A DNA stretch of 63,357 nucleotides from Candidatus Hydrogenedens sp. (lineage in GTDB: Bacteria; Hydrogenedentota; Hydrogenedentia; Hydrogenedentales; CAITNO01). The stretch covers positions 1 through 63,357 of the forward strand of contig JAAYJV010000014.1 in NCBI GenBank assembly GCA_012522755.1. Reading direction: 5' to 3'. The notes under the pieces are model-generated. The model saw only the letters and a list, made by a program, of their open reading frames with translations. It did no database searches and was not told the DNA's origin. This document shows positions 55,893 to 62,465 of this stretch, in pieces (position 1 is the first letter of the stretch; every line of letters starts with the position of its first letter). The position numbers and the translations under genes were made by a program.

Positions 55893-56235
55893 GGAAAGCC
55901 GTTGAGACTTGTTCCCGGGAGCGCCAATGTCCCCATTGGCAGATAGCGAGTAATGGCACCGATATTTTATAGACAATGATGCGGTAACAGGTCTTTTGCT
56001 GGCCACGAATAAAGTTTTTGGAAACTCTGAGTCTTTGTTCTCCCGTCAAATGCATATATAAGTCATGGTCTTTTCCCGGGTGTCCTGCCAATGTGGAAAT
56101 TGGCGTTCCCAGGTAAGTATCAGACGTCTTTAAAAAACGACCTGTACTTCGTGACTTCGTGGTTAGAAAAAGCAAGTATCATTTACTTGCGGCTGTGCTG
56201 CACTGTGCTTTCCCTGTTATTTTCTTCATGCCACA
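55893..56235 (+). repeat. Composite non-coding repeat mosaic, copy D
   Basis: Between the second oxidoreductase and the convergent GT2 gene. Contains element 55914-56113, the start of the right block (gtaagtatcagacg), and the ttgcggctgtgctgcactgtg block (56188-56208). Confidence 0.8.
55914..56113. mobile_element. MITE-like element D, diverged left end
   Basis: The right end 56087-56113 is identical to the others. The left end 55914-55940 carries changes (cccgggagc and GCCAATGTCCCCATTGGC), which still form a hairpin and extend it to seven pairs. Length 200 bp. The interior matches B and C (ggtcttttgc, ctctgagtctttgttctccc). Confidence 0.75.
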
Positions 56236-57227
56236 AAAAGAAAATCAGTTCCTTCCTGATAGCCGCGAGGTGTCAGTCGTGACCTGATATCATCCCGGGC
56301 GCCCGGGGTTCCGACGGCAACAACAATAAAACACTGTCCGGGCGGAGGCAATTCATCTTCTCTGATAACATGAACCCCATGAATATGTTTTCCGATTTTC
56401 CGGGGATTGATATCGACGACAGCCTCCGGAGCTTCCGCCCATTCCTGCAGCCAGGCTTTGCCCACTTCGCCGGCACCCCATTGATAAAAGGCTTTTCCTG
56501 ACTTCTTGGCATCGGCAACGGGAAGATAAATGCGTTTCAAAGCTCTGAAGGCTTTTAACCCATAACGTTCATCCTGGCGCGAAAGTCTCTTGTCATGATC
56601 ACGCCACAAAAGAAGCTGTTCCTTTGTTTTTCCGAAGACAGCTCCCTGCATTGCGGCCCGCAGGAAAAAATCATAATCTTCCGGGAAAGGACCTTCCCGG
56701 TAACCGCCCAGAGCAATAAAGAGCGAGCGTTTCATCATGAAAGTGGGATGGGGGAGGGGACACTCCACAAAACGTTCTTTATAAATGTCGTCATGACAAA
56801 GGAGACTGTTTATCCATCTTTCATAGCGTTCCGTTCCCGAAGCGCGGCTCGGTCCTTCCAGTTGTACACAGGTACCGCACAAATCCAGCTGAGGATTTTC
56901 CTGGAAAAGACGCAGTTGTATTTCCAGACGTTCCGGCCGGGCGATGTCATCGGCGTCCATACGTGCGAGAAAAGGAGTCTTTGCTTCTGCGCAAGCCCGG
57001 TTCAGACTTTTTACGATGCCATGGTGAGCGCCCTGCAGTACCCGGATACGGGAGTCCTTCCGGGCATAGGATTCCAACAGAGTTGCGGAACGGTCTCTTG
57101 AGCCATCATCCACAGTGATCAGTTCCCAGTCATTGTATGTTTGAGAGAGAAGGGAATCCAGGCTTTCGGCAAGCCAGGTCTCTTCGTTATAAACGGGCAT
57201 TATAATGGAGACACCAGGGGAAGCCAT
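56226..57227 (-). CDS. Family 2 glycosyltransferase with C-terminal Rossmann-like extension
   Basis: 333 residues. GT-A domain: VSIIMPVYNEETWL, VDDGSRDRS, the DXD site ARMDADDIA and FPEDYDFFLRA, for nucleotide-sugar-dependent transfer. After about residue 240 a C-terminal part (FYQWGAGEVGKAW, AVVDINPRKIGK, IVVAVGTPGARDDI) resembles a nucleotide-binding or methyltransferase-adaptor-like domain. Last gene of a three-gene minus-strand operon; it follows the GH51-like gene by 4 bases. Acceptor unknown. Confidence 0.85.
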   Translation of the reverse strand: MASPGVSIIMPVYNEETWLAESLDSLLSQTYNDWELITVDDGSRDRSATLLESYARKDSRIRVLQGAHHGIVKSLNRACAEAKTPFLARMDADDIARPERLEIQLRLFQENPQLDLCGTCVQLEGPSRASGTERYERWINSLLCHDDIYKERFVECPLPHPTFMMKRSLFIALGGYREGPFPEDYDFFLRAAMQGAVFGKTKEQLLLWRDHDKRLSRQDERYGLKAFRALKRIYLPVADAKKSGKAFYQWGAGEVGKAWLQEWAEAPEAVVDINPRKIGKHIHGVHVIREDELPPPGQCFIVVAVGTPGARDDIRSRLTPRGYQEGTDFLFVA

Positions 57228-57231
57228 GAGA

Positions 57232-58701
57232 TTATCGTGCGCTGAGAGAAAGTGAAAAAGCGGTCACTGACAAAGGGGGGAAAGAACACGGGAGTTTTTC
57301 ATTGTCCAGGAGAGGCCGCAGGCGTTTCGCATTAATCAGCGAGGGATTCTCCCAATTGTTTTCATCTGTCAGTTTGGAACCCTTCACCATCCTTCCACTC
57401 GCACTCGAAATAGTGGCATCACGTATATCCACGTATCCTTCCAGCGTTTCTGTTTGCGAAGCATTGATCACAGTCAGATAAAGTTTCTTTTTTGTTAAAG
57501 AAGCGCAGATATCGAGCAGAGGCCGGGAAGGTTGAAGTGACTCAGCTGGAAGCTCAGTCCCCGAGCTTTTTACAGCGACAAGCCGCCCCTCGCGGTGAGG
57601 GCGCATGATATCAAAAATATGATACAGAGGCGTGAGATAAATACGCTCTCCCTGGGTAACAGCCAGACACTGACCGACGTTTATGGCCGGGCCGAAAAGG
57701 GCGGAAGAAACCAGGGGGGCCAGTCTGTGCATGGAATGGAGAAAGGAAGCTCCCAGTAGAGCGGCTTGTATTGTGCGGCGAGGCTCAGTGAGTTCCTGTA
57801 TCAAATTATCTTCAGAAAGCCGCCAGTCATTGACAGTCAGAGAAAAGTCATGTTCCGGCTGATAATAACGCAGCAGACCATGCAGCGCCTTTATCTTGTC
57901 CTCCAGCTCATGAATCTGAACATAGCTTTGACAAGAGGAGTTCTGATTACAGTCCTCAGGAGCGGGCACACTCAAGCGACAGGGTGTTGTAAAGGCCTGG
58001 GGAAGCAGCGTGGGTACTATGCTTTGAACAAAATCAGCAAACCAGTTTTTCGGCAATTCCTGCAGTGGGGTTCCGGGCCCGGCCCAGAGATGAATATCCG
58101 GTGCGATGGCCTTCATGGCTGCAGCGAAAGAACAATATCTTTCAGCATAGTGTGTGGCAAAATAGGGGCTGCTGTTGAAGGGGGCGGCGGCCAGATCCCA
58201 GAAAGGTACATTGTGCGGCTTGGCTGAGCCCGCTTGTGAGCGCAATTCAGCCAGAGTGGAGCAGCCCGGAAAATTACAGTATTCCACCCAGTCCCGCGCT
58301 TCCTGAGGGCGGCCCGTATGTGTGTTCACCTGCAGACAGGGGACAGTGCCCAGTTCTCTGCAAAAATAGAGGAAATCTTCCGTCCCGAAAGTGTTTGGCT
58401 CCAACTGTTGTGCCGAAGCATTGGTTGTAAGTCTTCTCTGCTCCTTCCTGCACACTCCGTGCTTCCAATGATATTCCCGGCTGAAACTGCGCCCGGGCCA
58501 GCTGATTACAGGAATGCGCAGATGCGTAAGAGCGGCCAGCACATCCAGACGGATTCCCTTCCTGTTGGGAATGGCTGCGTCTTCTTCAACCCGGATGCCG
58601 TCATAGATACATTGCCCTGCATGGGCTATTGACAGACCGTGGAGAGATGCGGGGATCCTCTGGCTCGTCAGGGCGGGCCAGCAGCGAATGGTCACGCTCA
58701 T
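57232..58701 (-). CDS. GH51 (alpha-L-arabinofuranosidase)-like protein without catalytic glutamates
   Basis: 489 residues, no signal peptide. The N-terminal half follows GH51 closely: GIRLDVLAALTHLRIPVISWPGR, SREYHWKHGV, and NTFGTEDFLYFCRELGTVPCLQVNTH. The acid/base site, normally WGVGNE, reads WDLAAA (168-173), so the Glu is Ala173. The nucleophile site, normally DEW, reads NDW (D292). Both catalytic Glu are missing, so hydrolysis is unlikely. The C-terminal part is the family's beta domain. It sits 3 bases after the 58705 gene and 4 bases before the GT2 gene, an intimate operon. Possible binding or regulatory role. Confidence 0.8.
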   Translation of the reverse strand: MSVTIRCWPALTSQRIPASLHGLSIAHAGQCIYDGIRVEEDAAIPNRKGIRLDVLAALTHLRIPVISWPGRSFSREYHWKHGVCRKEQRRLTTNASAQQLEPNTFGTEDFLYFCRELGTVPCLQVNTHTGRPQEARDWVEYCNFPGCSTLAELRSQAGSAKPHNVPFWDLAAAPFNSSPYFATHYAERYCSFAAAMKAIAPDIHLWAGPGTPLQELPKNWFADFVQSIVPTLLPQAFTTPCRLSVPAPEDCNQNSSCQSYVQIHELEDKIKALHGLLRYYQPEHDFSLTVNDWRLSEDNLIQELTEPRRTIQAALLGASFLHSMHRLAPLVSSALFGPAINVGQCLAVTQGERIYLTPLYHIFDIMRPHREGRLVAVKSSGTELPAESLQPSRPLLDICASLTKKKLYLTVINASQTETLEGYVDIRDATISSASGRMVKGSKLTDENNWENPSLINAKRLRPLLDNEKLPCSFPPLSVTAFSLSLSAR

Positions 58702-58704
58702 GGA

Positions 58705-59397
58705 TCAGTCCCTTTCCCTGATCTCATCAAACTGCTGTAGAAAGGGGAAAACGTGGTCCGTTATAAAGCGACGTGTCGTCTGCAGATTTGTGGCAATGAT
58801 ATCCACATTATCCGGTCCCACGGGCTGGCGTCCGAAAATTCCTTTCACCTCAACGAATATTTCACTTACGCTGTGCCGGAAAGATTCTATAATCACATGG
58901 AGAGTGCCGCTGTGTTCATTGGTTTCCGGGAAGATGAAACGCAGCCCGCCCGTGGCCAGGGGACGTTGAAAATAGGGCTGAATCCGGTTATCCAGCTGAC
59001 AGGCGTTGTCCAGAAGGAAAACCCGGGCATCGTCAAAATTCGTGAGGGCGAAGGTGGAGCGTACTGTCAGGGCATGCAACATGATATTGGGAATATTCTG
59101 CGTGGTCATGGCCAGAGGCACAGCGACACGGAGTTTTTCGATGAAGGTACTCAGGGGGATATCAGCCCATTCTTCAATCATCAGCATTCGCTCCGGCAGA
59201 TGGATCATGATGGATTGGGCTTTGGCCCGTTGAGAATGAAATTTAGCCTGCAGAGGAGTGGAAATATCGATGCTGTCATAAGCTGCACGGCTCTGAGAGA
59301 GATCATAGTACAGTTTTTGAAGATGCTGCCGGTTCAAACTGAGTGGAGGATGGATCAGTTCCGCTGAAAAATGGATGACACGATCCTCAATTTGCAT
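58705..59397 (-). CDS. Hypothetical protein, first gene of the GH51-like/GT2 operon
   Basis: 230 residues, cytoplasmic by appearance (no signal or membrane segment). Mixed alpha/beta: HFSAELIHPPLSLNR at the start, a helical middle (STPLQAKFHSQRAKAQSIMIHL), a beta region (HALTVRSTFALTNFDDARVFLL) and a helical end (TTRRFITDHVFPFLQQFDEI). I do not recognise the family. Its stop is 3 bases before the GH51-like start, implying linked expression and perhaps a joint function. Bases 59398-59504 hold nothing recognisable. Confidence 0.7.
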   Translation of the reverse strand: MQIEDRVIHFSAELIHPPLSLNRQHLQKLYYDLSQSRAAYDSIDISTPLQAKFHSQRAKAQSIMIHLPERMLMIEEWADIPLSTFIEKLRVAVPLAMTTQNIPNIMLHALTVRSTFALTNFDDARVFLLDNACQLDNRIQPYFQRPLATGGLRFIFPETNEHSGTLHVIIESFRHSVSEIFVEVKGIFGRQPVGPDNVDIIATNLQTTRRFITDHVFPFLQQFDEIRERD

Positions 59398-59504: not shown

Positions 59505-60335
59505 TCAATACGCCCGGATATCGTCAATAAAGACGGCGCTTTCCTGACCGATTTCTCCTGCGCATGAGAAGCTGAAACTCAAAATGGCCGGGCGTCCGGA
59601 GGCAAATTCATCAATGTCCAGTTCAATATTCTGATAGGCGTTGTAACCCAGAGCCTCCGTTTCAGTCAGTTGCCAGAGCAGGGTGTTGTTGATGCTCACA
59701 TTGAAGGTGAACGGGTTTGTGGTGAGCGGAACCGATACATTGAAACTCAAAGTGGCTTTTTTCTGAGCAGGCAATACAATCTGCTGAACCAGTGTCGCCT
59801 GTTCAAATCCATACTGTGCACTGTTGCCGAACCAGGCCCAACCCTGTCCGTGAGCGGGACCACGACCGCCCAGAAGTCCGCAGGTTCCGGTGGTGCAGAT
59901 GATCGGCAGGCCGGTTAGCGACAGTGCCTCCCAGGAAGTTTCGGCGGAGGGGTATTCGAAGTTGCCATCTTTGACAAAATTCACCTGATCATTCCCGATA
60001 TCCGGCTCTCCCTCTGCAGGTTCCAGGGCATCGTACTGGAACTCCGCAGCCACAGCCTCATCGGCATAGATTTTTTTGTCTGTCGGATTCACTGTGGTGT
60101 TGATGCCTGAACCCACCCATCGGCGGAAGCTGTACCCTTCAGAAGGGATGGCTGTGAGAGTCACCGTGGTGCCGGCAAAGTAAGAGGGTCGTTCCGGAGA
60201 AAGCTCCACAACACCGCCTTCAATAGGTACGGAGGTGACTGTTAGCACATAAAAGGCATTGGGCGGACAGCCGGCCAATGCCAGAAGTGCAAGGCTTGCA
60301 AAGATTGCCGAAAAAAACAATGTTTTAGCAGACAT
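59505..60335 (-). CDS. Lipoprotein with InlB-type B-repeat domain
   Basis: 276 residues. Lipobox LALAGC with C23 as the lipidated Cys. Residues 30-100 form a divergent InlB-type B repeat (LTVTSVPIEGGVVELSP... GTTVTLTAIPSEGYSFRRWVG). The remainder is a beta-sandwich-like domain (FVKDGNFEYPSAETSWEAL ... LSFNVSVPL ... LELDIDEF-type strands) that resembles carbohydrate-binding modules and ends in VFIDDIRAY. Probably displayed at the cell surface or periplasm; ligand unknown. Follows the small gene at 60407 and the TolC gene in the same direction. Confidence 0.82.
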   Translation of the reverse strand: MSAKTLFFSAIFASLALLALAGCPPNAFYVLTVTSVPIEGGVVELSPERPSYFAGTTVTLTAIPSEGYSFRRWVGSGINTTVNPTDKKIYADEAVAAEFQYDALEPAEGEPDIGNDQVNFVKDGNFEYPSAETSWEALSLTGLPIICTTGTCGLLGGRGPAHGQGWAWFGNSAQYGFEQATLVQQIVLPAQKKATLSFNVSVPLTTNPFTFNVSINNTLLWQLTETEALGYNAYQNIELDIDEFASGRPAILSFSFSCAGEIGQESAVFIDDIRAY

Positions 60336-60406
60336 GGCGGAATTCCTTTTTCCGTCTGAAGATACCTGGCCAGACCCAATGCAGCAACAAGAAGCAGAAA
60401 GCGGAG

Positions 60407-60520
60407 CTACCGGCGGCTGAAAAGGTTTCCCAGGTTTCTGAAAATTTCAATGATGAAATTCAGCAGGTCGAACAAGTCATAAAAAAAGTCTATGATTTCG
60501 GTATGGGACGCTTTGATCAT
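60407..60520 (-). CDS. 37-residue hydrophobic/amphipathic peptide
   Basis: Start ATG at 60520 with AAGGAG 8 bases upstream, one of the best ribosome sites in the window; stop TAG at 60407. The product (MIKASHTEIIDFFYDLF...NLGNLFSRR) is almost entirely one amphipathic or membrane-seeking helix with acidic residues spaced along one face and a basic end. It lies 56 bases after the TolC gene and 71 before the lipoprotein gene, in an operon. Candidates are a membrane-associated small protein, a TolC-associated regulator or a peptide toxin; none is proven. Confidence 0.6.
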   Translation of the reverse strand: MIKASHTEIIDFFYDLFDLLNFIIEIFRNLGNLFSRR

Positions 60521-60576
60521 TTCAAGATCTCCTTCAGTTTATGAAACATAAAGCCAAGCGGAATAACCGCTACTAC

Positions 60577-62334
60577 TTAATCATCGTCCAGGCCGTCTTC
60601 ACGGGGATCCTTTCGGATAACATCCAGACTGACGCCTGTAGCCGTGTGCAAAGCTTGCCAGCAACGATGCAGGTTGACACGGGCTTGTGCAAGAAGGCCC
60701 ATGGCTTGAACATAATCATTTTGTGCCTGGTTCAATCGTACAAGCATGGCCTTACCTGCATTATACTCTTTTTCGACCAGATCACGATTTTTTTCCACAC
60801 AGGAAGCCGCTTCCAGCTGAAGTGTCAGAGCCTCCTGAGCAATTTTCAGATCCAACAGAGCCGCACGTACTTCAGAGGCTATCTTCTGTTCCGACTCAAC
60901 AATGTACCATTCCGCTTCTTTACGGGCGTGCTTTGCTGTGGTCACTTGCGCCTTGCGACGGCCCCCGGCAAAAAGATTGACTGATACATTGATGCCCACT
61001 GTGGATACAATCCGATCGGAGTCAAAAGAATTTTCATTGATATTGGCCGTCTGAGCCATGGCTATAGCCGCCACCTGAGGGGAGTATTGAGCGTATTCTC
61101 TACGTACGGAGGCCCGGGCACGTTTCAATCCCAGTTCCTTTTGTTCGAGATCGGGGCGACAGGCGAAAGCCAGTTCCAGCATGGCTTCCGTATCGGGCAC
61201 GACCATGATATCCGGACTTTCTTCTTCCAGTGCAGCAAGCTGGATATGCTCGTTCAGATACCCTTCTTCTTCGCCAATGAGTACGGCAAGAGCTATCCTG
61301 GCCAGTTCATGTTCTCTTGTCGCCCTGAGCAGGTTGCCCCGAGCCGCATATAATGCCGTCTCGAAATTCAATACATCACTTGTGGCTGCACGACCCACAT
61401 CGCGCCGAACCTGAGCTTCTTTGCGGAGGCGTTCAAAAAAAGTGATGGCCGCTTCCGCCACGACAACCTGCTCCCGTGCATATTGGCCGCCATAATAAGC
61501 CTGGGCGACTGCATCCAGAAGAATACGCTGGCCGTCTTTATAGGCTGCTTGTGCTTCCTGAAATGCATGTTTCGCCATGGCGTTGGCAAATTCTCGGGCG
61601 AAGCCATCGAAGAGCAGCCAGCCGGCTGTTATATTCATCGAAGCGTTTTCATAGGGGCTGTCCAGATATTTGCGCGCTCTGTTCAGAGCATCATCGGAGC
61701 TGTTCAACCAGGAGCGGAGGTTTCTGCGGTCAAATTCACGGGGAAGGGTGTTGGATACAGTGTACCAATACATCTGGCGACGGATATCTGAAACCAGATC
61801 CTGAGTTTGATCAAGATAATCATTCAAGGGATCCGTGTACGACGATGGGAGCCAGGTCCAGGTGTAGGTGTAATTAAGGTCGATCTGCGGGTAATACATG
61901 GAGCGCGCCATGGCAACCAGTTGCTTGGCCTGATACACGCGCTCAGCGCCGGCGGCCAGTGAGGGGTTGGCGGAAATGGCTTGACGCTGTGCCTCAACAA
62001 GATCAAGGGCGTGAACATCTTCACAAACATCTTCCGGAGGAGGTGGCATCGACTCGGGAGCAGAAATGGATTGTCCCTCGGCATCACTGCTCTCAGCAAT
62101 AGCAAGGGATGTATCTGTCTGGTTCTCTTCAGTTGATCCATTCACAGAAGTGTTTTGTGAGGCCTCTTCGGCATTCATCACAGGCCGAGGAGGATCCTCG
62201 CTGTGTATAACTGTGTATTCTTCCGCCAGATCAGCCGAAGTACCATAGGCCGGAATCCAACAACACAGAAAAGCCAGAAGGGCACACCAGCTGACACCTG
62301 CAACAACGGTATGCGGTATCGCAGGGTATGCCAT
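60577..62334 (-). CDS. TolC-family outer-membrane channel protein
   Basis: 585 residues from ATG 62334 (AAAGGAA 8 bases upstream; 62358 is an alternative). A signal segment (VVAGVSWCALLAFLCCWIPAYG) is followed by an unusual 70-residue acidic Ser/Thr/Pro/Glu-rich lead before the first OEP domain (HALDLVEAQRQAISANPSLAAG). The two long helical hairpin repeats are visible: RSMYYPQIDLNYTY ... LGLKRARASVRREYAQYSPQVA, and SVGINVSVNLFAGG-type strands (VGINVSVNLFAGGRRKAQV) for the barrel. Forms a trimeric outer-membrane exit duct for efflux or type I secretion. No inner-membrane pump or adaptor is adjacent. Confidence 0.88.
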   Translation of the reverse strand: MAYPAIPHTVVAGVSWCALLAFLCCWIPAYGTSADLAEEYTVIHSEDPPRPVMNAEEASQNTSVNGSTEENQTDTSLAIAESSDAEGQSISAPESMPPPPEDVCEDVHALDLVEAQRQAISANPSLAAGAERVYQAKQLVAMARSMYYPQIDLNYTYTWTWLPSSYTDPLNDYLDQTQDLVSDIRRQMYWYTVSNTLPREFDRRNLRSWLNSSDDALNRARKYLDSPYENASMNITAGWLLFDGFAREFANAMAKHAFQEAQAAYKDGQRILLDAVAQAYYGGQYAREQVVVAEAAITFFERLRKEAQVRRDVGRAATSDVLNFETALYAARGNLLRATREHELARIALAVLIGEEEGYLNEHIQLAALEEESPDIMVVPDTEAMLELAFACRPDLEQKELGLKRARASVRREYAQYSPQVAAIAMAQTANINENSFDSDRIVSTVGINVSVNLFAGGRRKAQVTTAKHARKEAEWYIVESEQKIASEVRAALLDLKIAQEALTLQLEAASCVEKNRDLVEKEYNAGKAMLVRLNQAQNDYVQAMGLLAQARVNLHRCWQALHTATGVSLDVIRKDPREDGLDDD

Positions 62335-62465
62335 AAAACGTTCCTTTTCTATTGCCATGCCGCAAAGGGCAAGAATGGGTTAAAGCATATTTCAGCCATG
62401 AAGCATAATGGAATGGCAAATCATGACAAACTCGACCTTATCAAAACAACCGCGCTCCCCTTAAG

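Follow-up and report, generated by a model that had tools for sequence, protein, structure and literature searches.

A predicted GH51 pseudoenzyme encoded within a conserved UNK-GH51-GT2 cassette of Candidatus Hydrogenedentota

Most known pseudo-glycosidases come from animals and plants. In Klotho (GH1-like) and the chitinase-like lectins (GH18), which are mostly eukaryotic, secreted or membrane proteins, the glycosidase fold was kept after the catalytic acids had been lost and was reused for binding or scaffolding. Neither GH51 pseudoenzymes nor a UNK-GH51-GT2 cassette turned up in a literature search; PMC3526467, an apparent hit, deals with GH5 subfamilies. Within the window, that is, the whole 63,357-nucleotide stretch of DNA that was analysed, the middle gene of such a cassette encodes a homologue of the GH51 alpha-L-arabinofuranosidase of Thermobacillus xylanilyticus (Abf; PDB 2vrk, 2vrq and 6zt6-6zta). 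Residues 18-485 of the window protein match 6zta/2vrk with an E value of about 1e-56 (6zta best, 2e-56), and the predicted barrel and beta domain are common to both proteins. In contrast to Abf, the window protein lacks both catalytic Glu residues and most of the -1 subsite (Table 1).

Table 1. Features of the cassette in the window
Feature	Position	Strand	Basis
Terminator-like hairpin and T run, 3' of GT2	56172..56190	-	consensus match only
GT2 glycosyltransferase, 333 aa, last cassette gene	56226..57227	-	domain match, relatives
Cassette GH51 homologue, 489 aa, predicted to be catalytically dead	57232..58701	-	alignments, Pfam, structure model
Asp in place of nucleophile Glu, codon 292	57826..57828	-	GH51 alignments
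Ala-Ala in place of acid/base-site Asn-Glu, codons 172-173	58183..58188	-	GH51 alignments
UNK, 230-aa conserved protein, first cassette gene	58705..59397	-	homologue search, predicted fold

Fold and active site of the cassette GH51 homologue

By sequence homology, the window protein belongs beyond doubt to family GH51. Its reading frame begins with ATG and is open throughout all 489 codons. Pfam PF06964 (Alpha-L-AF_C) scores 65 bits, and the NCBIfam model ArfA matches with an E value of 3e-41, under that model's cut-off. The AF2 model has a pLDDT of 88.7, with low-confidence stretches beside the two catalytic sites (176-179 and 299-304) and at 386-388, and superimposes on 2vrq and 2vrk with TM scores of 0.90-0.91 (0.91 to 2vrq). 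The model and residue conservation together show that the (beta/alpha)8 barrel and the C-terminal beta domain are retained in the predicted structure. The clear GH51 scaffold and intact frame of the original prediction, which had been made by a model from the letters and open reading frames, are thus borne out. No signal peptide-like or membrane segment was found in the sequence, and the lack of a signal peptide had also been predicted; active cassette GH51s likewise begin without a signal peptide, so this absence is no peculiarity of the dead copy.

In an alignment of 23 cassette GH51s with PDB GH51s, both catalytic Glu residues are found in 16 proteins and not in the other seven. The dead copies belong to family f1 (the window, G003 and G008) and to genus g19 of family f11 (G030, G048, G040 and G046). 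The 16 active copies resemble the window gene in their site between UNK and GT2 or beside UNK, and the proteins share about 31-38% identity with the window protein; unlike it, they keep both Glu residues and almost the entire arabinofuranose pocket. The acid/base motif WGVGNE aligns with WDLAAA in the window protein, the reading first proposed, with Glu replaced by Ala173 and no WG-x-GNE pattern left. The nucleophile motif VDEW is VNDW, in which Asp292 replaces Glu and the DEW pattern is gone; the claim of a lost nucleophile therefore holds for the Glu, but the residue has been substituted by Asp and not removed. The nucleophile Glu is still present in G003 and G008. In the f11 copies, the acid/base loop is deleted and the nucleophile is Gln, Gln, Ala and Ser (G030, G048, G040 and G046, respectively).

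The sugar-contacting positions, which in GH51 structures include the -1 subsite residues E28, R69, Y242 and Q347, were located by motifs and are numbered on the basis of T. xylanilyticus Abf. At these positions the window protein carries E28A, R69S, N175A, E176A, H240P, Y242R, E298D and Q347P, so that the four -1 subsite residues of an active enzyme read A, S, R and P. Fifteen active cassette relatives share 129 invariant columns. Of these, the window protein has lost 15 of the 17 beside the landmarks and 40 of the 112 elsewhere (p 5e-5); the corresponding losses in G003 are 9/17 and 10/112 (p 6e-5). This concentration is not significant in G008 and is marginal in three of the four f11 copies. 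The window protein has thus retained its scaffold but not its pocket. Because the arabinofuranose-contacting residues were lost too, sugar binding in the canonical site is unlikely, and the sugar-binding role that had been suggested finds no support there. Since Asp is a carboxylate and the fold is intact, the protein might still be an enzyme that uses Asp292 as nucleophile with another acid, perhaps on another substrate. We consider this very unlikely: Ala-Ala-Ala stands at the acid/base site and no Glu lies close to it, E28, R69, N175, H240, Y242 and Q347 are all replaced, and in the f11 copies a missing acid/base loop is combined with a nucleophile position occupied by Gln, Ala or Ser. Comparison with known GH51s leaves a protein that, judged by its sequence, is catalytically dead.

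The window genome has two further, neighbouring GH51 genes on contig C108 (L135 1271-4339 and 4738-6705, minus strand). In both proteins the GNE and DEW motifs are intact and the N-terminus resembles a signal sequence, and one (1022 aa) apparently contains a second glycosidase-like domain. Among the GH51s found in this genome, the cassette copy is the only one predicted to have lost catalysis.

The UNK-GH51-GT2 cassette and the UNK protein

The gene order UNK-GH51-GT2 is common across Candidatus Hydrogenedentota. The GH51 gene of the window is separated by 3 nt from the upstream UNK and by 4 nt from GT2, which agrees with the spacings first reported, and cassette neighbours elsewhere show few-base gaps or short overlaps. 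In a survey of 68 genomes of the window's order, UNK was present in 54 (35 of the 38 high-quality ones), and most genomes had a close GT2 orthologue. By a reading of the coordinates, GH51 directly follows UNK in 23 genomes, with GT2 next in 18 of these. In at least 17 genomes UNK lies no more than about 250 bases from GT2 and GH51 is absent, and UNK also occurs without either neighbour, for example in Hydrogenedens-like genomes. UNK-GT2 is therefore the wider pair, and GH51 is its variable middle gene and not obligatory to it. The tight link to both neighbours is real and conserved across the cassette genomes; the shared function with the transferase that the original prediction drew from it is unproven, and many UNK-GT2 pairs stand without GH51.

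UNK and GT2 are both intact in the window, and the ARMDADD and PEDYD segments of GT2, which are conserved in its relatives, are preserved. All three cassette proteins are predicted to be soluble and are apparently cytosolic. Terminator-like sites of the kind that follows GT2 number eight in the region, compared with 4.8 expected. Genes for a TolC-like outer membrane protein and a small InlB B-repeat lipoprotein are found upstream of the cassette in several genomes of f1 (window 59505-62358, minus strand; also L031, L032 and L042), preceded in L031 and L032 by a large pump-like gene, RND type by appearance; this context is missing at the listed loci of other families. Contig L067, the title of which reads Nitrospiraceae bacterium OTbin.67, also carries the UNK and GH51 genes of the cassette; its public name looks wrong.

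In Pfam, NCBIfam and the sequences of the PDB, UNK has matches at chance level only. Its AF2 model is confident (pLDDT 91) and contains two beta-alpha-beta4-alpha units, although a profile comparison found no match between the two halves. Foldseek ranks TATA-binding proteins (TBPs) first in the PDB (E about 1e-6, probability 1.0), but the superposition gives a TM score of only 0.36-0.40 by query length with an rmsd of about 10, and membership in the TBP fold was not accepted. A literature search for bacterial TBP-domain proteins found nothing, and matches to viral models (TM 0.56-0.62 to an unnamed protein) gave no functional lead. Four distant relatives of UNK come from genomes of other orders, where the surrounding genes differ (L131 5736-6611, L132 5734-6537, L130 5875-6567 and L133 2027-2722); in two related genomes among these, the gene is beside recN-like and ATP-pyrophosphatase-type genes.

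Losses of catalysis, selection and gene loss

Families f1 and f11 are far apart in the UNK tree, and a constraint that unites the seven dead-GH51 genomes lowers the log-likelihood by 139 units (AU p 8e-98). The seven dead copies join in the GH51 tree without support (50/54), and a group made up of the dead copies of f1 and two active copies of that family is not rejected (p 0.375); long branches make this tree unreliable here. A single clade of all seven dead copies was accordingly discarded. Since the UNK tree rejects it, catalysis was most probably lost on two occasions; independent losses in the two lineages explain the data most simply, and transfer of a dead copy in place of the second loss is conceivable. 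The public records of the matching genomes are metagenome assemblies, which would allow for an assembly or binning artefact, but the seven dead copies, with their open frames and conserved neighbours, span two lineages, which makes this extremely improbable.

Dead GH51s evolve faster than active ones. The pN/pS of GH51 is 0.34-0.64 in dead-dead pairs (0.64 for window-G003) and 0.18-0.30 in active-active pairs, and that of UNK in the same dead pairs is 0.17-0.32, all of which are rough values because synonymous sites are near saturation. Branch lengths in the GH51 tree are 1.89 for the window, 0.87 for G008 and 0.18 for G003, compared with 0.05-0.35 for active copies. In a neutral simulation at 0.2 substitutions per site, about 7 stops arose and the probability of no stop was about 0.001. 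The four f11 genomes hold an already dead version in open frames at 52-64% amino-acid identity. Frames that stay open where neutral ones carry several stops show that purifying selection on the dead GH51s continued, although weakened. Open frames under purifying selection after catalytic loss are clearest in f11. For the window copy, selection is inferred from frame survival: synonymous divergence of neighbouring genes from the genus-mate G001 is at least 1.4, about 0.7 per branch, which at the neutral stop rate indicates that the frame was selected for most of the time since the split. A more recent relaxation may have occurred, and the branch of 1.89 fits either relaxed constraint or a changed role. 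The open frames at high divergence and the shared dead copies of f11 support the earlier view of a putative pseudoenzyme rather than a fresh pseudogene.

G001 keeps UNK and has neither the cassette GH51 nor a GT2 orthologue, and a search for a GH51 remnant in it found none. Across genera g1 and g3, three genomes carry dead copies and three (G001, G013 and G016) have no GH51 after UNK. The short UNK-GT2 gap of G014 (genus g4) weakly matches 21 C-terminal GH51 residues (52% identity, E 0.01 in a tiny search), a possible remnant consistent with deletion. The absence in G001 and the G014 match favour dispensability and keep alive the main and serious rival to a retained role, namely slow decay, in which activity became unnecessary and constraint fades toward deletion, with the window copy at a late, still open stage. 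The mixed presence in g1 and g3, the G014 gap, the long branches of G008 and the window and the high pN/pS of window-G003 all agree with it. Against it stand the open frames where neutrality would leave about 7 stops, the dead copy kept by four f11 genomes, and G003, whose pocket is lost on a branch of ordinary length. We regard decay as possible, with a chance of perhaps one third in our estimation.

A proposed non-catalytic role and comparison with known systems

The gene probably descends from one for an active GH51 enzyme of the cytosol that lay between UNK and GT2 in Ca. Hydrogenedentota; in the active cassette, glycosyltransferase and arabinofuranosidase would make and trim a furanosyl conjugate. 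In two lineages the active site was destroyed, as the sequences show, with the barrel and the C-terminal beta domain kept; the dead protein would persist because it serves the UNK-GT2 module in a second, non-catalytic way, most probably as a scaffold or a regulatory subunit in the cytosol. Retention of fold and neighbour order after probably at least two losses suggests such a job, and we lean slightly toward the dead GH51 staying in these lineages as a non-catalytic subunit of the module. The concentration of losses in the pocket, the kept fold and gene order, the activity predicted for 16 relatives, the separate placement of the dead lineages in the UNK tree, the intact UNK and GT2 of the window and the continued selection argue for this. 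The absence of GH51 from at least 17 UNK-GT2 genomes and from G001 argues against it, as do the fast window branch, which fits weakening constraint, and the weaker pocket signal in G008 and three f11 copies. Because many UNK-GT2 operons have no GH51, the role would be conditional, and the physical partnership that it implies is putative. The broader idea, that GH51 does structural or regulatory work in the module in addition to catalysis, so that catalysis could be lost repeatedly while the protein stayed, is held more tentatively, at somewhat under even chances.

If this reading is correct, the evolution of a bacterial pseudoenzyme can be traced in stages: intact, acid/base lost, both lost and gene deleted. 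Because related species carry the gene of this operon intact, half-dead or dead, or have deleted it, the operon makes it possible to ask at what point, and for what reason, an enzyme fold outlives its chemistry. The cassette also points to UNK, a widespread, unstudied protein of the phylum beside a glycosyltransferase. In common with Klotho and the chitinase-like lectins, the glycosidase fold of the cassette GH51 outlasts its catalytic acids; unlike them, the protein is bacterial, predicted to be cytosolic and encoded in an operon, and shows two apparently independent losses.
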